The notes under the pieces were generated by a model. It saw nothing but the letters and a program-made list of their open reading frames with translations, had not been told where the DNA came from and did not search any database. Position numbers and translations under genes: made by a program. Of a stretch of DNA of 46,673 nucleotides, positions 21,144-28,596 are shown in pieces. The number at the start of each line of letters is the position of its first letter. Within the stretch, counting starts at the first letter, position 1. The stretch comes from a bacterium (lineage in GTDB: Bacteria > Cyanobacteriota > Sericytochromatia > S15B-MN24 > VGJW01), in assembly GCA_021781555.1 (NCBI GenBank), contig JAJXWQ010000020.1, positions 1 to 46,673 on the forward strand, read 5' to 3'.

Positions 21144-22139
21144 TCACGACGTAGCGGCCCAGAGGCCCTCGACCATCTCGATCCGACCGGCGCGCCCGCC
21201 GCTGAGTCGACCGAAGAAGTACGAGCGGATCCGTTCGGTACCTCTGACCGCGCGCTCGGGCACCGGCACGATGTGCGTGTCGAAGCGGATGGCGCCGTCG
21301 GACGAGCGGACCTCGAGCGTCCGGAACTGGTGCGGAAACTCGATCAGGCCCGGGCCCGTGAGGACGTGGGCCAGGCCGAACGGTTGCCAACCGGCCAGAT
21401 GGAAGTGCCCGCACAGCAGTGCCGCCACGTTGGGATGGGCCGACAGCGTCGCCGCGAGGCGCTTCTTGTCGGCAGCGGCGAACTTGAGAGAGTCCATCAG
21501 CGGGTATGGCGCGACCGGGGGATGATGCAGGGCGACCAGGACCACCTCGTCGCTGGCATCGGCCAGGACACGGCCAAGCCAGTCGGCCTGCCGTTGCGAG
21601 AAGAAGCCGCGCCAGCACAGGTAATGCGCGTCCTCGGTATCCGTTGTATCCAGCACCACCAGCCGCACGCCGGGATTCAGCCGGACATCGTAGAAGGGCT
21701 GTCCTGCCTGCGCGAGTCCCCAGTCCTCGAGGGATTCGATGAGCTGGAGCTTGCGCCGGTCCGCATGCTCACCTTCGACGTCATGGTTGCCCAGGGCGGC
21801 AAACCAGGGGTGGCGCAGCTCGCGCATGATGGAGTTGAAGACCGGGATCTCGGGACCCAGGCTCTCGGCGTCGTCGAACAGATCGCCGGTCACCAGCACC
21901 GCATCGAGATCGAGGTCGTTGAGGCGCGAGACCGCGTGCCGCAGGACCTCCGGGCCGGACGGATACCGGCTTTCGGGAGCCGAGGAGAAGTGGAGGTCCG
22001 TCAGGTGGGCGATCCGGACCGGTGCCGGGTCGCCCGGGCGGGCGAGCGCGGGCTCGCACGAGGCCCGCGCCGACGCGAGTTCCGTTCCCGGCTGGATCGA
22101 GGCGCGACGGGCCGACGGGCGAGCGAAAAAGCGCTTCAT
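21144..22139 (-). CDS. Calcineurin-like metallophosphoesterase
   Basis: 331 aa. The dimetal phosphoesterase motifs are complete and in order: HLTDLHF (about 45-51), VTGDLFDD, ALGNHDVEGEH, ALHHPPV and LCGHFHLAG. Such enzymes hydrolyse phosphomonoesters or diesters such as cAMP or lipid-linked substrates; the specificity is unknown. The first ~40 residues are Arg/Ala-rich without a clean signal peptide, so the protein is probably cytosolic or the true start is internal. No Shine-Dalgarno precedes the ATG; a weak TAGTTT 6 nt upstream could be a -10. It lies beyond the SpoIIE-type phosphatase operon on the same strand (about 100 bp). Confidence 0.9.
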   Translation of the reverse strand: MKRFFARPSARRASIQPGTELASARASCEPALARPGDPAPVRIAHLTDLHFSSAPESRYPSGPEVLRHAVSRLNDLDLDAVLVTGDLFDDAESLGPEIPVFNSIMRELRHPWFAALGNHDVEGEHADRRKLQLIESLEDWGLAQAGQPFYDVRLNPGVRLVVLDTTDTEDAHYLCWRGFFSQRQADWLGRVLADASDEVVLVALHHPPVAPYPLMDSLKFAAADKKRLAATLSAHPNVAALLCGHFHLAGWQPFGLAHVLTGPGLIEFPHQFRTLEVRSSDGAIRFDTHIVPVPERAVRGTERIRSYFFGRLSGGRAGRIEMVEGLWAATS

Positions 22140-22238
22140 ACCAGAAAACTACCCGCTCTCCGGAGCGGAGTAATCGGGCAAGCGCACAAGCTGCATTGAA
22201 ACTTTAGAGCGGTTTCCGAAGATCCGTAGCGAGGCGAT

Positions 22239-24653
22239 TCAAGGCGTCGCCGGCGGTTGCCCGGCGGCCTCCAGCTGCGGCCGGGCAACCCGAGCCTCCT
22301 TCGTCTCGGCGGACAAGCCACTCGGGAGCGCGGTGCACTGAAGGGCCAGGATGGTGAAGTCGTCGTACAGCGCGCGCTGCTGGCGGAAGCCGTCGATCTC
22401 CTGGCGCACGGCCGCGATGAGTTCGCCGGGCTCCCGCGTCGCGAGTTCTCCGGCCACCCCGTGCAACCGGTCCTCGCCGTAGCGCTCGTCGCCGGGGGCT
22501 CGGGCGTCGGTCACACCGTCGGAGAGCAATACGAGCGTCTCGTTCTCCGCCAGGTGCACCTCGAAGTCGCGATACTGCACCTTGGCGCGGGCGCCCAGGG
22601 GCATGCCGCGGGTCTCGAGCGCCTTGCCGGCGTGGATCGGGGCGGGATTCCCGCCATTGACCACGCGGGCGATGCCCGTGCCGGGGTCGTACACGGCGTA
22701 GGTGATTGCGATGAACATCTTGCTCGATGGGCGGTACCGGATCAGGGCTTCGTTGACGGCTTGCAGCGTCTCGATCGGAGTCCGGTACAGCGGCGCGTAG
22801 GCCCGGAACATCGTCAGGCAGACCGCTCCGAGGAACGCGGCCGGGACGCCCTTGCCAGACACGTCGCCGAGGACCAGGCCCACGGCCCCGCCCTCGAGCG
22901 GAATCACGTCGTAGAAGTCCCCGCCCATCTCGAGGGCGGCTTCGTTGAAGCCCGAGACCTTGGCCCCGGGGATCTCTGGCAGGTGCGCCGGCAGGATGCC
23001 GCGCTGGACCTCGTGGGCGATCTCGATCTCCTTGGCCATCCGCTCCTGGGCGAGGACCCGCCGGATCAGTGACAGGTTCTTCATCGCCATGGCGAGGTTG
23101 CCGCACAGGCTGCGCCAGAACACCCTGTCCGCCTCGTTGTACGGGAGGTCCGAGCGCTTCTCGCCTACCATCGCCAGGCCCAGGACCTCGTCGCCCATGT
23201 GGATGTTCTCGGACAGCGCAAAACCGCCCGAGGTCCCGCGCTCGTAGTGGTCGCCTCCCGTCATCGAGACGCCGACGAAAACGGGAGCGAAGGCCCGGGT
23301 GACGATACCGTCGAAGGCGTGGAAGAGCTCGTCGGGCACGATCGCCGCCCGCGCCCGTTCGCCGAATTCCGCCAGGAGTTGCGCGGCGTGGTATTGCTGA
23401 CGCGAGAAGATGCGATCGAGCGTCCGCTGCATCCAGTTGGACAGCGGCGTGAACGCGAAGGCCACCACGGCCGCCGCCACCGCATCCGTGAGCTGCGACG
23501 ATCCCTTGGGCAGGACCCACTGCAGGGCATAGCTCGAGCCGAGCATCGTGCCGAAGTAGATCGCGCCGAGGATCGTGGCCAGCAGGGCGTACTGGATCGT
23601 CCGCTTGATGACCAGGTCGATATCGAAGAGCTTGGTCTTGACGATGGCGTAGACGATCGAGGCCGGGAAGAAGACGAAGAAGAGCGTCCCGGGCAGCACG
23701 AAGCTCGTGGCGTCGTATCCGGCCAGGGTCGGTACCAGCCAGAGCAGCGTCAGCGGCAAGAAGGCCATGGCGGCTCCGTAGAGCGCCACCTTGGCTTGCT
23801 GTCCGGCCAGCGCACTCTGTGGCCGCAGGGTCGACACGATCAGACTCACGACGAGCGTCAGTGCACCGATGAGTACCCAGAGGTAGCTGGCCCCGTAGTA
23901 TACGGCGAGGTAGGCATCGAGCAAGGGATTGGCCGGGGCAGCCAGGGGCCGGAACAGGAGGGCGCCCAGCGCTCCGATGAGCAAGGCGGGAACATAGGCG
24001 ATCCAGAGCTTGCGCAGGGGACGGCGGCGTACCGTGAGGGGAACGGGAAACGACAGCCCGAGGTGCAGGGCCGTGCTCCCGAACAGCGCTCCGACCAGCG
24101 CCACGAAGGGAGACCACAGGCTCCTTAGATCGTAGTCCGTGTTGGACGCCATGAAGATGGCAAGAGACGCCGTGAAATACAGGTGGACACGACCCGTGGC
24201 ATTGTCAGGCTTGAGCCAATATCCGGCGGCGCCGATCAACAGGAATAGCAGGCCAATCAGGGCCAGCGGGAACACGGTCTGGAACCAGTCGCTGGCCGTG
24301 AAGACCACGGTAGGGATCGATATCGATCGGGTTCCCGCGTCGCCGGTCACCCGGTACCGGATGGGGGTTCCCGTCGGCACCGACCGGACGAGCCGCCAGA
24401 GATCGGCCGAGCCGGAGGCCGCGCGACCGTTGATCGCGACGACTCGGTCCTGCTGGGCCAGGCCAGCTCGCATTCCGGGCCAGCTCGCCAGGTTGACCGA
24501 GGAAACCGTCAAGGTCGGTTCGAACCGGAATCCCGCAAAGCTCTTTCCGACGAAGGACAGCGAGGCGGCGGTGCTGATGACCAGCAACGCGAAGGCGAGT
24601 GCAATGATCGACAGCGGGACGTACCGGTGTCTGCCAGCCTTGGACGGCACCAC
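22239..24653 (-). CDS. Membrane PDZ / ComP-like sensor fused to SpoIIE-type PP2C phosphatase
   Basis: 804 aa. Order: TM (12-32); PDZ-like domain (about 45-115, with LASWPGMRAGLAQQDRVVAIN); seven or eight TM helices (about 125-405) containing LHLGLSFPVP (196-205) and KLFDIDLVIKRTIQY (341-355); then NWMQRTLDRIFSRQQY (about 406-421), a GAF-like region (430-540), a short coiled linker (EIEIAHEVQRGILP) and a PP2C/SpoIIE phosphatase with GGDFYDV, LGDVSGKGVPAAF, NGGNPAP, LLSDGVTDA and YDDFTILAL. The metal-binding Asp residues are present, so it should be active on phosphoserine or phosphothreonine. The sensor half matches the plan of ComP-like and related multi-TM histidine kinases. Starts are GTG 24653 or 24650 (the second has better GAGGT spacing), 7 bp after the ComQ-like stop. 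No anti-sigma or anti-sigma-antagonist substrate gene lies nearby. Confidence 0.9.
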   Translation of the reverse strand: MVPSKAGRHRYVPLSIIALAFALLVISTAASLSFVGKSFAGFRFEPTLTVSSVNLASWPGMRAGLAQQDRVVAINGRAASGSADLWRLVRSVPTGTPIRYRVTGDAGTRSISIPTVVFTASDWFQTVFPLALIGLLFLLIGAAGYWLKPDNATGRVHLYFTASLAIFMASNTDYDLRSLWSPFVALVGALFGSTALHLGLSFPVPLTVRRRPLRKLWIAYVPALLIGALGALLFRPLAAPANPLLDAYLAVYYGASYLWVLIGALTLVVSLIVSTLRPQSALAGQQAKVALYGAAMAFLPLTLLWLVPTLAGYDATSFVLPGTLFFVFFPASIVYAIVKTKLFDIDLVIKRTIQYALLATILGAIYFGTMLGSSYALQWVLPKGSSQLTDAVAAAVVAFAFTPLSNWMQRTLDRIFSRQQYHAAQLLAEFGERARAAIVPDELFHAFDGIVTRAFAPVFVGVSMTGGDHYERGTSGGFALSENIHMGDEVLGLAMVGEKRSDLPYNEADRVFWRSLCGNLAMAMKNLSLIRRVLAQERMAKEIEIAHEVQRGILPAHLPEIPGAKVSGFNEAALEMGGDFYDVIPLEGGAVGLVLGDVSGKGVPAAFLGAVCLTMFRAYAPLYRTPIETLQAVNEALIRYRPSSKMFIAITYAVYDPGTGIARVVNGGNPAPIHAGKALETRGMPLGARAKVQYRDFEVHLAENETLVLLSDGVTDARAPGDERYGEDRLHGVAGELATREPGELIAAVRQEIDGFRQQRALYDDFTILALQCTALPSGLSAETKEARVARPQLEAAGQPPATP

Positions 24654-24660
24654 GAGACCT

Positions 24661-25542
24661 CTAGATGACCACCGACGGGGAAGCTTGCCGGATCAGTGCG
24701 GAGAACTCTACTCGGCTGGCTTCGGGGAGTGGAATTTGACCCAGCAGTCCCTCGATTTCGAGGACCATGCCGTCAATCGCCAGGTCTACGAACGCCAGGG
24801 CCCCACAGGATCGGAGGAGGGTCAACAAGGGCAAAGGATCGGGGGCTTGCAGCGCTTCATGCGTAGCCGCAGGATACCGCTCCAGGGCGTAGGCGATAGG
24901 AAGCGTGGCCTTTCGGTTCCGCAGATCTCGCGACTGGGGATCCGCCAGATCCAGGAGGTCCGACCTCAGCTGGGTCATTGTGCCCCAAATTCCTCCAAGC
25001 TCACCCCACAGGTCCACGATGTCGTGATTCTGCTCGGCGGCCAGGGCGGCCATCCTCGTGTAGAGTTGCATCGAGGCCCCGGACTTCTGGCGGACCGAAG
25101 AGAGCACCTCGGTTTCGCTCATCGGCCTTTGCCAGGATGACGCAAGATCCATCGCCTGTCCGGATGTGAGCGCCAGGCCGGCCCTCCCGATTTCGTTCGC
25201 TACTGGGGCTCCGGGAGCGGAGGCGGCAAAGGCCGCCATGGCGCCGAAAAGAAATGCGTTTCCGGCATTGATGGCCTGGGGCCACATCATGCCCACAGGG
25301 AGATCGCCGTCTTGCGCGTCGTCGATCACGTCCGCGGAGAGGAAGAAGAGCCTGCACCCGTCCAGAAGAGCTTCGGCACGTTCCGACGGGACGCCGTAGC
25401 TGCGGGCGATCCGTGCCGGCACGGCGACGACCGGCCAGCGCTCCGGATCGGTCTGCCGGGCCACTCTCTCGGCCCGGCTTTCGACCAGAGAACGCAAAGG
25501 GGCTGGCGGATCCCCGAGCCAGCCCAGGCTATTTTCGACCAC
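24661..25542 (-). CDS. ComQ-like isoprenoid synthase / polyprenyl transferase
   Basis: 293 aa, close to ComQ (about 300 aa). All-alpha isoprenoid synthase fold. The first Asp-rich motif is DVIDDAQDGD (D74, D75, D78: DDxxD), followed by TSGQAMDL (about 127-132) and RQKSG (K153). The second region is QLRSDLLDL ... DLRNRKATLPIAYAL (about 191-220), lacking the full DDxxD of farnesyl synthases but like ComQ, which transfers a prenyl chain to a Trp of the ComX pheromone. A diphosphate-binding role is secure from the motifs; whether it elongates prenyl chains or prenylates a protein or peptide is inference. The start is GTG, 6 bp after the metallopeptidase stop, with no good Shine-Dalgarno, so translational coupling is likely. 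No separate ComX-like small gene fits in the 7-bp gap to the phosphatase gene. Confidence 0.82.
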   Translation of the reverse strand: MVENSLGWLGDPPAPLRSLVESRAERVARQTDPERWPVVAVPARIARSYGVPSERAEALLDGCRLFFLSADVIDDAQDGDLPVGMMWPQAINAGNAFLFGAMAAFAASAPGAPVANEIGRAGLALTSGQAMDLASSWQRPMSETEVLSSVRQKSGASMQLYTRMAALAAEQNHDIVDLWGELGGIWGTMTQLRSDLLDLADPQSRDLRNRKATLPIAYALERYPAATHEALQAPDPLPLLTLLRSCGALAFVDLAIDGMVLEIEGLLGQIPLPEASRVEFSALIRQASPSVVI

Positions 25543-25548
25543 GGCGCT

Positions 25549-27303
25549 CTACATGCAGTTGTTCGCGCCGGCTTGCATATCCATCGCATTGCCGAGATTG
25601 GCAACGCCTTTGGCAAGCTGGTCCAGGTCGCTGTGGTTGTCGCTGTTGATCAGGGACTTGACGAGTTCGAGCTGGGCCGGTCCGATGCGGGAGATGTTCC
25701 CTCTCATGTTGGCGATCGTCGTCGGATCCTGTTCGGGACCGAGATGGCCGACCGTGAACCCGAAGATCTTGATGTCGATGCCGCCCCAGAGCTTGCCGGC
25801 CAGGTTGGTGATGTCCGGGTTGCTGGCCAAGGTGTTGACGACATCCTGGCCCTTGGGCGAGTTGAGGAGCTTCTGGAGCGAGGGATCGAGGTTGTCCCAG
25901 ACCGACGGGTTGTGAATCAGGCCCTCGAGGTACTGGGCCCGCTCATCCTGGCTCGCGAACATCTTGATCTTGTCCCAACCACTGGGCTGCTGCATGAGCA
26001 GGTTGGCGAAGTTGGTCATCGCGGTGACGTCGCCCGAGCTCACGTCTTCTGCAGGCGCGGCCTGGTTGGCCTTGACCGTGGCGAGGAGCTTGGACGCATA
26101 GGCGGGCTGCGATAGCAGGGATTGCTCGCTCTGCGAGAGCTGGCCCCAGAGGGTAGGCCCGAGGGCCTGCTGGGCGTTGCCGTTTGCGAACTGGCTGACG
26201 AAGGAGGAGTTGCCGAGGTTGGCCATCACCGTGCTGACGACATTCCCGGCCGCGCTGCCCGCGCTGCCCGAGTTGCCGAGGCCCTGGGTCTGGCTGATCT
26301 TGGCCAGCGTCTCGGGGCGCAGGTCCGAGTTGCGCATCTCGGCCATGACCATCGGGAGGTCGACCCCATCGCTGGCGGCCATGGTCTGCACCTGGCTCGG
26401 CGTGTACTTGCCGAACTGGGCGTTGAGGTAGAGGAACTTGTCCGGTGCGGCCTTCATCAGGTCGTCGGGATGAAGCAGGTAGTTGCGGAAGGATTCGGCG
26501 TAGTCCTCGGCTGCCGAGGTCTGGGCCATCTGGGTGCCGGCATCCTGCACGAAGTTGGTGGTGTTCAGGGGCTTGTCGCCACCCCGGTCGGTCGCCACCT
26601 CCATGCCGGAGTTGTTGTAACCGTCCTGCATCGTGCCGTCGGAGTTCTTGACGAAGTGCGAGAGCTTGCCGAACTCGCGGATCATGTTGGGGTCGAAGCG
26701 GCCGCCGCCATCGGCAGCATGACCGAACTCGTGCGCGGCGACGTCGGCGAGATCGCCGGTCTTGCTGGCCTTGTCAGTGAAGGAGATTGTCAGTGGGCCA
26801 CCAACTTGCTCGTTACCGCCGAAATTGGTTTGCGCAATGTTGCTGCTCCCGTCGGAAGCGACCGGCTCCCGGTTGAACGTGGTGTTGGCGAGCGCGGGGC
26901 GCGCCGAGGCCGGGAGGGCCTGGACGGCCGTGAGGAGCCCCTGGAGATCCTGTACCGACCACTGGCTGCCGCCGGTCGCGCTGAAGCTCACCCCCGGGCC
27001 GAGAAGCTGCTGGATCTGGCCCTCGAGGGCGGGCACCGTTGGACCCGAAGATGGCGGGGCGGCCGTGGCGACTGAACTTTTAAAGGCTGCGCGCACCGCC
27101 TCGGGTTCGAAGGCGAGGGCGCTCAGGCGCTGGCTCCCGGAGACCGTGGAGGTGTCGCTGACCAGCTTGGTCGTCGGGCTGGCCACCTGCTGGCTGGCCT
27201 GCTCCGGTGCGGGCTCGTGCTTTGCCCTCGCCGCCAGGTGCCGCGACCTGTCCGGGTGGAAGAAGTTCTCGACCCGGTGTTCGAACCTGCTGAACCAGCT
27301 CAT
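25549..27303 (-). CDS. HExxH zincin-like protein (ATLF/Pro-Pro-endopeptidase style) with C-terminal Asn-Cys-Met
   Basis: 584 aa from ATG 27301-27303, after a GGGGGT ribosome-site-like run; an upstream in-frame extension to 27402 is less likely. There is no signal peptide. Residues 1-100 are polar, Gln/Ser/Pro-rich. The putative catalytic zincin domain spans about 100-310: HEFGHAAD with H191, E192, H195, then SAAEDYAESFRNYLLHP with E266 or E270 as third ligand and a following Tyr, resembling anthrax-lethal-factor-like and Pro-Pro endopeptidase domains. Residues 330-560 are Gln/Asn/Ser-rich helical segments with repeated NLLxxP-like pieces. The last residues are ANNCM. First gene of the tight operon with the ComQ-like synthase and the membrane phosphatase; it may be the protease or the modified partner of the system. 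Confidence 0.82.
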   Translation of the reverse strand: MSWFSRFEHRVENFFHPDRSRHLAARAKHEPAPEQASQQVASPTTKLVSDTSTVSGSQRLSALAFEPEAVRAAFKSSVATAAPPSSGPTVPALEGQIQQLLGPGVSFSATGGSQWSVQDLQGLLTAVQALPASARPALANTTFNREPVASDGSSNIAQTNFGGNEQVGGPLTISFTDKASKTGDLADVAAHEFGHAADGGGRFDPNMIREFGKLSHFVKNSDGTMQDGYNNSGMEVATDRGGDKPLNTTNFVQDAGTQMAQTSAAEDYAESFRNYLLHPDDLMKAAPDKFLYLNAQFGKYTPSQVQTMAASDGVDLPMVMAEMRNSDLRPETLAKISQTQGLGNSGSAGSAAGNVVSTVMANLGNSSFVSQFANGNAQQALGPTLWGQLSQSEQSLLSQPAYASKLLATVKANQAAPAEDVSSGDVTAMTNFANLLMQQPSGWDKIKMFASQDERAQYLEGLIHNPSVWDNLDPSLQKLLNSPKGQDVVNTLASNPDITNLAGKLWGGIDIKIFGFTVGHLGPEQDPTTIANMRGNISRIGPAQLELVKSLINSDNHSDLDQLAKGVANLGNAMDMQAGANNCM

Positions 27304-27483
27304 ACTACGTGACCCCCACGAATTCCTCTGCTTGTGCCAGGTCCTTGTCAGGAGCCGAGGGCTTGCCCTTGCAAATGCATACAGTAACTTAATACCCCGC
27401 AACCGAGCATTTGGCGAGAGAAAACAGGTTCTTGAAGACCCGGGGCGATCCTGCGGGGCGGTGATCCTGGGGGATCCAGCAGG

Positions 27484-28596
27484 CTAGCGGTTCCTGAAGA
27501 AGGTTTCGGGGATGAGCGGCCATTCTCCGGCCGCGGCGCGACCGGGCTGGGTCGCGATGTCGCGCATGGCTTCCGTCACGTCCTGGGCTTGTGGAACGGA
27601 CGCAGCCTCGAGGGGCCAGGCCATTCCGATGCCCGGAACGTCCTTGCCCGCCAGGAGGCGGGGCGGGACCTCGAGGTCGTAGAAGAACTCTTCGGTGAGC
27701 CGGCGAATGAGGTGCTCGCCGTAGTTGGTGACCTCGGTGTCCTCGTTGATCACCAGCAAGCGTCGCGTCTTGTGGAGCGACTTGCGGAGTGTGGGCATGT
27801 CGATGGGATAGAGCGTGCGGAGATCGATCACGTCGAACGAGAGGCCCTCGCTGGCGAGCTGATCGGCGGCCTTGACGGCCAGAGGAAGGGTGCGGGCGTA
27901 AGACACCACCGTGGCGTTCGTCCCGGCGCGGCGGATGGCCGCCTGGCCGATGGGCACGAATGCGGGCTGGACGTCGGGCCAGTCCGGTTGCCAGCCGGTG
28001 GTGTCGCCGATTACCGGCTTGTTGATGCGGCGGTTGAGCTCTTTCTCGTCGGCGGGCTCGCCGGGGATCAGGTCGGGGGTCTTGGCCCGCAACAGGGCCT
28101 TGGGCTCCAGGAAGAGCACGGGATCGGGATCGGCGATCGCCGACAGCATCAGGCCGTAGGCGTCGATGGCGTTGGAGGGGCAGACGATCTTCCAGCCCGG
28201 GATGTGCGACGCGACGCTCTCGAACGAATGCGAGTGGTAGATCGATCCGTGGATGCCCGAACCCACGGGAGTCTTGACCACCAGCGGCAGGCCCCAGCTG
28301 CCGTAGCTGCTCCAGCGCATGTTGCCGGCCAGCTTGAGCAGGTCGATGGTGTTGAAGATGTAATCGCAGAACTGGATCTCGGCGACGGGCCGGCCGCCGG
28401 CCATCGCGATGCCGATGGCGGTGCCGATGATGCCCCGCTCGTCCAGCGGGCTGTTCCAGGCGCACTTGAGCCCCTGGGTCGCGGTGAACACGCCCCCCAG
28501 CGGAGGCCCGACGTCTTCGCCGAAGACGTCGGTAAGCCCGAGGTTTTCCTCGGCGTAGTGAAGGGCGAGGCGGATGCCCTGCGCCATGGTCGCCAT
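27484..28596 (-). CDS. 2-oxoacid dehydrogenase E1 component, beta subunit
   Basis: 370 aa. Thiamin-diphosphate-dependent E1 beta of the branched-chain / acetoin / pyruvate type. Seen: VFGEDVGPPLGGVFTATQGL near the N-terminus, PLDERGIIGTAIGIAMAGGRPVAEIQFCDYIFNTIDLL, PVGSGIHGSIYHSHSFE and VCPSNAIDAYGLM. The C-terminal transketolase domain has VIDLRTLYPIDMPTL and VINEDTEVTNYGEHL. With the alpha subunit it decarboxylates a 2-oxoacid and acylates the E2 lipoyl domain. The lipoyl E2 and E3 genes are not adjacent. The insertion around residues 180-215 (ADEKELNRRINKPVIGDTTG) is longer than usual. It follows the alpha gene by 36 bp. Confidence 0.93.
   Translation of the reverse strand: MATMAQGIRLALHYAEENLGLTDVFGEDVGPPLGGVFTATQGLKCAWNSPLDERGIIGTAIGIAMAGGRPVAEIQFCDYIFNTIDLLKLAGNMRWSSYGSWGLPLVVKTPVGSGIHGSIYHSHSFESVASHIPGWKIVCPSNAIDAYGLMLSAIADPDPVLFLEPKALLRAKTPDLIPGEPADEKELNRRINKPVIGDTTGWQPDWPDVQPAFVPIGQAAIRRAGTNATVVSYARTLPLAVKAADQLASEGLSFDVIDLRTLYPIDMPTLRKSLHKTRRLLVINEDTEVTNYGEHLIRRLTEEFFYDLEVPPRLLAGKDVPGIGMAWPLEAASVPQAQDVTEAMRDIATQPGRAAAGEWPLIPETFFRNR

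Follow-up and report, generated by a model that had tools for sequence, protein, structure and literature searches.

Three consecutive minus-strand genes (M, Q, and P) in the window, namely, the whole 46,673-nucleotide stretch of contig JAJXWQ010000020.1 (assembly GCA_021781555.1; Sericytochromatia, a non-photosynthetic class of Cyanobacteriota), look like a rewired ComQ–ComP module: a gene for a ComQ-like protein of the prenyl-synthase fold (Q) adjoins one for a predicted ComP-type receptor (P), and the output of this receptor is a putative phosphatase. We tentatively propose that M-Q-P is a signaling module that operates in the manner of ComQ and ComP in Bacillus quorum sensing and is rewired to the phosphatase, and give this reading slightly less than an even chance. 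The operon is not comQXPA, and its signal is one that we infer.

25549..27303, minus strand: M, 584 amino acids (aa), with a disordered N tail, a PPEP/lethal factor (LF)-fold zincin domain, a helical C-terminal region, and a short disordered C tail
24661..25542, minus strand: Q, 293 aa, trans-prenyl-synthase fold, ComQ-like
22239..24653, minus strand: P, 804 aa, predicted ComP-type receptor with a PDZ domain and multiple transmembrane (TM) helices, PP2C output

Layout and conservation of the operon

The intergenic gaps were 6 bp (M-Q) and 7 bp (Q-P), and the GC contents at the three codon positions were typical of coding sequences: 0.61/0.46/0.88 in M, 0.69/0.50/0.74 in Q, and 0.66/0.47/0.87 in P. 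Coordinates, motifs, Pfam searches, and structural models confirmed the arrangement described in the initial annotation of this DNA, in which closely spaced genes on one strand encode a zincin-like protein, a prenyl synthase, and a PDZ/multi-TM/PP2C protein. The operon is located on contig C13 of the host genome (G000; 3.8 Mb).

A search for Q in 98 genomes yielded matches in 16, all of which were among the 18 genomes of the same class; none of the 80 other Cyanobacteriota matched. M, Q, and P adjoined one another in a constant order in nine of the 18 genomes of the class, and in nine of the ten genomes of the order (G000, G001, and G003 to G009; the exception was G002). The conservation of the trio in relatives, as supposed in the initial annotation, was thus borne out. 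M of the window shared 74% identity with M of one of the other eight trio genomes and 23-37% with those of the remaining seven. Gene neighborhoods of the trio differed, and the flanks were common to groups of relatives and not to all, suggesting that the linkage of M-Q-P outlasted rearrangements. Since the trio was contiguous in nine genomes despite the divergence of M, and in several neighborhoods, a chance operon was ruled out. The genomes are metagenome-assembled genomes (MAGs), and gene starts outside the window were taken from a simple open reading frame (ORF) script. P of the trio was truncated by the contig end in G001 and G003, while that of G004 contained an in-frame TAA near the end of the PDZ domain (L030, G004:C37, ~2370-2450), indicating a pseudogene or sequencing error. 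G003 carried two near-identical copies of Q (L047 and L048), which were treated as two alignment rows and as one genome in the other counts.

Q and P without M, with P first, were found in G010 and G014 (M was not found in G010). When a profile of M was applied to 386 Cyanobacteriota genomes, 18 matched at 1e-5: 15 in the class and three elsewhere, the latter being short and weak. With the Q profile, two genomes beyond the class (G140 and G100) scored above 120 bits, and the next matches there, at 75 bits or lower, are presumably ordinary synthases; in both surveys, the best three or five first-pass candidates per genome were scored. Matches to the M alignment at 14 loci in named genomes came from MAGs of Sericytochromatia, Tanganyikabacteria, and 'Cyanobacteria bacterium', from two 'bacterium' isolates, and from one 'Deltaproteobacteria' MAG (a short weak match). 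A scan of viral contigs for ComQ returned no match.

The ComQ-like protein Q and the receptor P

Q exceeded the cut-off of Pfam PF00348 (54.9 bits; cut-off, 27), and its two Asp-rich regions were as follows.

25309..25323, minus strand: first Asp-rich motif of Q, DDAQD (residues 74-78)
24949..24963, minus strand: pseudo second Asp motif of Q, SDLLD (residues 194-198), preceded by Gln191

These motifs were compared in an alignment of 22 Sericytochromatia Q rows, four ComQs (annotated or from comX-linked plasmid loci), 31 ordinary synthases, and two others, with long rows trimmed to the domain by position. The ordinary synthases were 28 of the 29 loci L070-L098 (L086, which is Q of G004, was omitted), L025, L026, and a Parabacteroides plasmid record. 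The first motif was DDxxD in 21 of the 22 Q rows and DCVED in the other (L044). The first Asp of the second motif was replaced in all 22 (SD in 13, GD in six, ND in two, and TD in one), whereas it was kept (DD) in 31/31 ordinary synthases; the four ComQs have GD, ND, ND, and ND. Q191 and D195 were invariant (18/18), the Gln also being carried by the ordinary synthases of the alignment. Most of the ordinary synthases had a longer loop after the second motif than Q and ComQ, although two of them (L026 and L098) were also short. Of the ComQ-style second motif proposed in the initial annotation, S-D for D-D and the shortened loop are informative, but the DLRNRKATLP segment is not ComQ-specific because D..xGKxTLP occurs in some ordinary synthases.

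In the phylogenetic tree, the ordinary synthases formed one clade (100/98), and Q and ComQ were both located outside it, with ComQ nearer to the ordinary synthases. Q is thus apart from farnesyl diphosphate (FPP), geranylgeranyl diphosphate (GGPP), and polyprenyl synthases, its second Asp motif being broken as in ComQ, and is without the two DDxxD motifs expected of an FPP, GGPP, or polyprenyl diphosphate synthase. Since the host genome encodes two ordinary synthases besides Q (and one further Q paralogue), Q is not needed for chain making. According to the available text of PMC5331326, ComQ requires NDxxx or GDxxx as its second motif, and an Asp in the first position does not suit the prenylation of Trp. 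The Ser of Q fits the loss of elongation but breaks this strict rule, and we therefore refer to Q as a ComQ-like, trans-isoprenyl diphosphate synthase (IDS)-like prenyltransferase, not as ComQ. Judged by sequence, Q is a putative enzyme of the prenyl-synthase fold in which the donor motif is intact and the elongation motif is broken, and it resembles the ComQ type of peptide prenyltransferase.

P consists of a sensor half and an output half, with the following features.

24558..24632, minus strand: first TM helix of P (residues 8-32)
24300..24545, minus strand: PDZ-like domain of P (residues ~37-118), beta-rich, from sub-threshold PDZ_6/PDZ_2 matches and the model
23406..24296, minus strand: membrane helices of P (residues 120-416), including LFDIDLVIKRT; model confidence falls in parts of 340-420
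23154..23387, minus strand: GAF-like domain of P (residues ~423-500), mixed alpha/beta, followed by a long linker helix (507-553), from the model
22326..22979, minus strand: SpoIIE/RsbU-type PP2C domain of P (residues ~559-776), Asp motifs kept

The model of P had a mean predicted local distance difference test (pLDDT) score of 77 and a predicted template modeling score (pTM) of 0.46. The PDZ-like domain is presumably extracytoplasmic because it sits between TM1 and TM2; it was below the Pfam cut-off in P, and PDZ_2 was above it in the paralogues L166, L171, and L172. GAF was detected by family searches in relatives, not in P itself. When the sensor half was aligned by hhalign with a ComP profile made of two sequences, a match of 97.3% (E 2.3e-11) was obtained over 406 columns, which extend from TM1 across PDZ and beyond the final helix, in contrast to 0.3% (E 0.18) for a control pair of unrelated polytopic proteins. 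Kinase paralogues with the same sensor reached 99.1%, with the kinase part included in the alignment. BLASTP between P and Priestia ComP gave 5e-9 over the membrane region. The available text of PMC9620489 describes ComP of B. amyloliquefaciens with the layout seen in P: TM1, a PDZ loop (27-111), more helices, and then a cytoplasmic subdomain. The match of the sensor half to ComP expected in the initial annotation was therefore recovered, none of the three outcomes that it had named as refuting was observed, and P is predicted to be a ComP-type receptor with a sensor half homologous to ComP. In a fold search of P, ComP was not among the best 50 matches, all of which were taken by the PP2C domain, and this result is no evidence of absence. 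The Trp in the PDZ segment of P aligned with a Trp in both ComPs and was also present in four of the five kinase paralogues; it was ruled out as the prenyl acceptor for this reason. In a sensor tree constructed by a 'quick' method, the receptors of M-Q-P did not form one clade, a single clade still being allowed.

The output half matched Pfam SpoIIE (136.9 bits; cut-off, 25), and the core Asp residues of PP2C were invariant in 10/10. Its modeled fold was similar to the RsbU domain of Rv1364c (RsbU-RsbW; Z 23.7, 2.6 Å over 213), and also to SiaA, RssB, and SpoIIE. The output of P is accordingly classed, from its sequence, as a putative RsbU/SpoIIE-type PP2C phosphatase with the Asp motifs kept; the PP2C fold and Asp residues are common to RsbU, SpoIIE, and SiaA, while the ComP-type sensor and the operon with Q and M are P's own. 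The neighborhood sampling covered 20 extra regions, 19 of which were picked from 48 P-like places. Among the paralogues sampled, the same sensor was joined to HisKA/HATPase (five), GGDEF (one), or SpoIIE outputs, and M and Q were not seen in the stretches around the six histidine kinase (HK)/GGDEF paralogues. The initial annotation suggested that the operon may be a prenyl-signal module in which a phosphatase replaces the kinase: the swap holds at the domain level, while a prenylated signal read by P is presumptive.

STAS and/or RsbW-like genes were found within 1.3 kb of five of the nine sampled PP2C paralogues without M and Q (L159, L160, L161, L165, and L174), the paralogue in L160 being directly upstream of the STAS gene on the same strand; the other four (L167-L170) had no such gene nearby. 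In L033 (7618-9690), genes for STAS, an RsbW-like ATPase, and Q directly succeeded one another, with short tandem repeats (by eye) after them, close to the end of the contig. These assignments were based on single-sequence profiles (E 1e-3), with those in L033 and L160 being the ones checked against Pfam. Partner switching is proposed for P on the basis of these genes near PP2C paralogues and before Q of L033.

The zincin-like protein M, flanking regions, and Q-like genes away from P

M contained the following features.

26719..26733, minus strand: HEFGH of M, zincin zinc-binding motif (residues 191-195)
26494..26508, minus strand: EDYAE of M (residues 266-270), in helix 264-277; Glu270 is the likely third zinc ligand
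27046..27303, minus strand: disordered N tail of M (residues 1-86), pLDDT below 50
25552..25581, minus strand: disordered C tail of M (residues 575-584), ending in ...AGANNCM

The core of the M model (mean pLDDT, 70.5) matched the C-domain of lethal factor and PPEP-1/-2/-3 (Z ~9-13 over ~150-177 residues, mostly at 3.2-4.5 Å), and H191, E192, G194, D267, A269, E270, and G579 were invariant in 9/9. A Pfam scan of M of the window (E up to 1) gave no match, and the paralogue in L054 scored 28 for Peptidase_Mx (cut-off, 27) with a weak match to ATLF. M is therefore regarded, from sequence and model, as a probable PPEP/LF-type zincin with flexible tails. It shares the zincin fold, HExxH, and the later Glu with these proteins, but differs in the long disordered N tail and helical C-terminal region, the identity being 13-18%. 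In G001, which belongs to the same genus, the motif of M (L029:594-2357) is HEFGN, with the second zinc His replaced by Asn, suggesting that catalysis may not be needed everywhere.

The N tails of M at several loci contained short TG-x-L repeats (by eye). A solitary M in L177 (6226-8277) has a long N tail of SGGPK repeats starting with GTGDLRGTGFL. The best NCBIfam match of Q was NF041169, a model for encapsulin cargo polyprenyl transferase (43.5 bits; cut-off, 450), and this model was also the best match for most of the Q relatives tried and for one ComQ; therefore, it does not discriminate. NF041169 and the TG-x-L repeats hinted at an encapsulin cargo reading, for which no SrpI-like shell turned up: the family 2 shell (PF19307) was found in 0/18 genomes, in a search whose controls gave no match either and which did not extend to the family 1 shell.

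Upstream of M, one further element was distinguished.

27304..27450, minus strand: leader stretch 5' of M, strongly conserved in G001; candidate promoter/leader

Conservation 5' of M between the window and G001 was 87% over 316 bases, the coding end of the upstream gene included. This stretch is likely to be the promoter/leader of the operon; no sigma-70-type promoter match was found in it, and an Rfam scan of 22000-27800 (E up to 1) gave no family match. The genes further upstream appear to be pyruvate-dehydrogenase-like. A calcineurin-like metallophosphoesterase gene is located 3' of P (21144-22139). G003 likewise has a metallophosphoesterase gene downstream of P (L047:3418-4326), with 44% identity and split over two ORFs.

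Several Q-like genes had other partners. In L041 (8258-10518) and L022 (1270-3294), the Q domain was followed by a long C-terminal half, with a sub-threshold match to SQHop_cyclase_C in L041 and none in L022. By description, this layout recalls the P and C domains of ChrPC, which has a trans-IDS-like prenyltransferase domain (PMC13290415, available text) and differs from the window Q, a single-domain protein. A 100-aa ORF directly precedes the long Q protein in L041 (G002), and its start resembles the N tails of M (by eye). On the Acaryochloris plasmid pREC3 (L067:4068-6780), an eCIS_core gene immediately precedes the gene for a ComQ-like polyprenyl synthetase. Outside the class but within Cyanobacteriota, a Q-like gene (152 bits) in L194 (2245-4228) was accompanied, at a distance of 0.7 kb, by a divergent Nif11-leader-like gene with Trp in the C-terminal part of its product (TIGR03798, 29.0 bits; cut-off, 32.3), a possible prenylated ribosomally synthesized and post-translationally modified peptide (RiPP). 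In L195 (6708-9667), the Q-like gene has an ND pseudo-motif (by eye), and the product of the gene after it carries a CdiA-CT RNase A domain. Two 'Stenotrophomonas' plasmid records (CP065518.1 and CP031730.1) gave ComQ-like matches of 97 and 98 bits, almost equal to Lysinibacillus, and are possibly misassigned.

Proposed signaling function and alternative explanations

In the proposed mechanism, Q would transfer a prenyl group to an acceptor (a tail of M, a peptide that M releases, or one encoded elsewhere) instead of extending a chain. The prenylated product would exit the cell or stay at the membrane, where the PDZ/membrane half of P would detect it, and P would dephosphorylate a STAS anti-anti-sigma protein encoded elsewhere, so that partner switching would alter gene expression. 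M would mature or supply the ligand, a step that we hold less firmly than those of Q and P; this role is the most likely one for M because M is retained beside P at loci lacking Q, and Q may modify the signal in just a part of the M-P pairs. A fuller version, in which prenylated-signal communication occurs outside Bacillota, the peptide lipidated by a ComQ-like enzyme is either matured by a PPEP-type protease or excised from it, and the phosphatase of a ComP-type receptor drives a partner-switching sigma cascade, appears somewhat doubtful.

M-Q-P resembles comQXPA of Bacillus in that a ComQ-like gene of the prenyl-synthase fold adjoins a gene for a ComP-type PDZ/multi-TM receptor on one strand, but comX, a kinase, and comA are all absent, and a PP2C output and the zincin M are present. 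Because the peptide gene, kinase, and response regulator are missing and a zincin is added, M-Q-P is regarded as a new variant that is like comQXPA in parts, not as a member of it. The available text of PMC4008528, a census in 2014, gives no comQXPA-like locus from any phylum other than Firmicutes, whereas M-Q-P was found in Cyanobacteriota. PalQ/PalX/PalP of Paenibacillus (PMC10853753), compared by the description in its available text, similarly combines genes for a ComQ-like prenyltransferase and a receptor; however, PalP is a histidine kinase and PalX is a RiPP precursor with a leader peptide and a terminal Trp, and M-Q-P has neither. In a limited collection of literature covered by titles and abstract openings, no description of an M-Q-P operon was recognized; the collection contained no pairing of comQ with DUF4157 or of Pro-Pro endopeptidase with polyprenyl synthetase, and ComQ and PP2C co-occurred just in work on the SigB regulon.

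A number of results weigh against the signaling module. Regarding the signal, no Trp-tailed small ORF was present outside larger genes by the trio of the window, and hence no ComX-like ORF, in agreement with the initial annotation, which had noted that no ComX-sized gene is present. (A search with PF05952 for ComX was uninformative because the B. subtilis control itself missed the cut-off, and the 68-aa ORF that separates M from P in L158 is probably spurious, the M-P gap being ~200 bases shorter at the near-identical G001 locus.) The tails of M have no conserved Trp or Cys (in the last 30 residues, Trp in 2/9 and Cys in 3/9 M-Q-P loci), so that M is not supported as a Trp or Cys acceptor, and no prenyl acceptor was found. 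An export signal, a further difference between M and the PPEP/LF zincins, was not evident in M by eye. Regarding Q, SD in the window differs from the ND/GD required of ComQ for Trp (PMC5331326, available text). When Q and ComQ were forced into a single clade, the p-value of the approximately unbiased test (p-AU) was 0.076, so that one clade was neither rejected nor demonstrated, with the program warning of long branches, and Q of Acaryochloris was placed by ComQ, away from Q of the window. Ten Q rows were unlinked to P, most of them without a telling partner, and L031, L032, L042, and L043 were near unrelated-looking genes. M and P stood without Q at five loci (G000:C62, G001:C120, G002:C67, G004:C80, and L057); in L057, which was equated with G008:C497 from matching gene lengths, P is short and without the sensor. 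Regarding P, BLASTP against Anoxybacillus ComP gave an E value of only 0.003. The P-type sensor is a multi-copy module, found in 16/18 genomes of the class, and therefore need not read a prenylated ligand. The operon contains no kinase or response regulator, the gene after P being that of the metallophosphoesterase. None of the trio loci fetched yielded a STAS or RsbW-like gene, and a STAS gene also lies 1.3 kb from L166, a paralogue of the kinase type.

The main rival is effector lipidation, in which Q prenylates M (or a partner) for anchoring or loading and P controls the operon by partner switching, with no extracellular pheromone. We consider it unlikely: the core of M shares the fold of secreted zincins, its tails are disordered, and Q-like genes adjoin effector-like domains elsewhere in Cyanobacteriota (eCIS_core in L067 and CdiA-CT RNase A in L195), but the tails offer no conserved acceptor residue, Q is missing from M-P pairs, and all characterized trans-IDS-like prenyltransferases target Trp according to the available text of PMC13290415. 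Quite unlikely, too, is a small prenylated molecule (a prenyl alcohol, a terpene-like compound, or a prenylated free amino acid) made by Q and sensed by, or unrelated to, P. An intact first motif and a broken second one also suit chemistry on one substrate or a free amino acid, for which Ord1, which farnesylates free Trp, provides a precedent (PMC13290415, available text), and no peptide substrate was found; nevertheless, Q lies between protease-like and receptor genes in nine genomes, and its motif resembles that of ComQ.

The remaining two explanations are weaker. P may be a general receptor phosphatase for envelope stress, with M as a housekeeping protease, Q as an accessory lipid enzyme, and no dedicated signal. 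The multiple copies and varied outputs of the PDZ-multi-TM sensors are in favor of this, as is the fact that PDZ domains also read exposed protein tails; however, we consider it improbable, as the linkage of Q and M is to PP2C receptors and neither gene was seen in the stretches fetched around the six HK/GGDEF paralogues sampled. Finally, a drifted ordinary prenyl diphosphate synthase in an incidental operon is highly improbable and, as an identity for Q, was rejected on motif and tree: the score above the PF00348 cut-off and the relatives of Q among solved structures, mostly ordinary synthases by sequence, are outweighed by the motif change in 22/22 rows, the clade split, and the two ordinary synthases in the same genome.

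In M-Q-P, relatives of the enzyme and receptor halves of a textbook pheromone system known from Gram-positive bacteria appear to share one operon far outside Bacillota, with the output of the receptor swapped for a phosphatase. The operon offers a concrete route to ask whether the non-photosynthetic relatives of cyanobacteria communicate by prenylated peptides. It also bears on the targets of prenyl synthases with a broken motif in Cyanobacteriota, and on how a single sensor half comes to be combined with kinase, cyclase, or phosphatase outputs.

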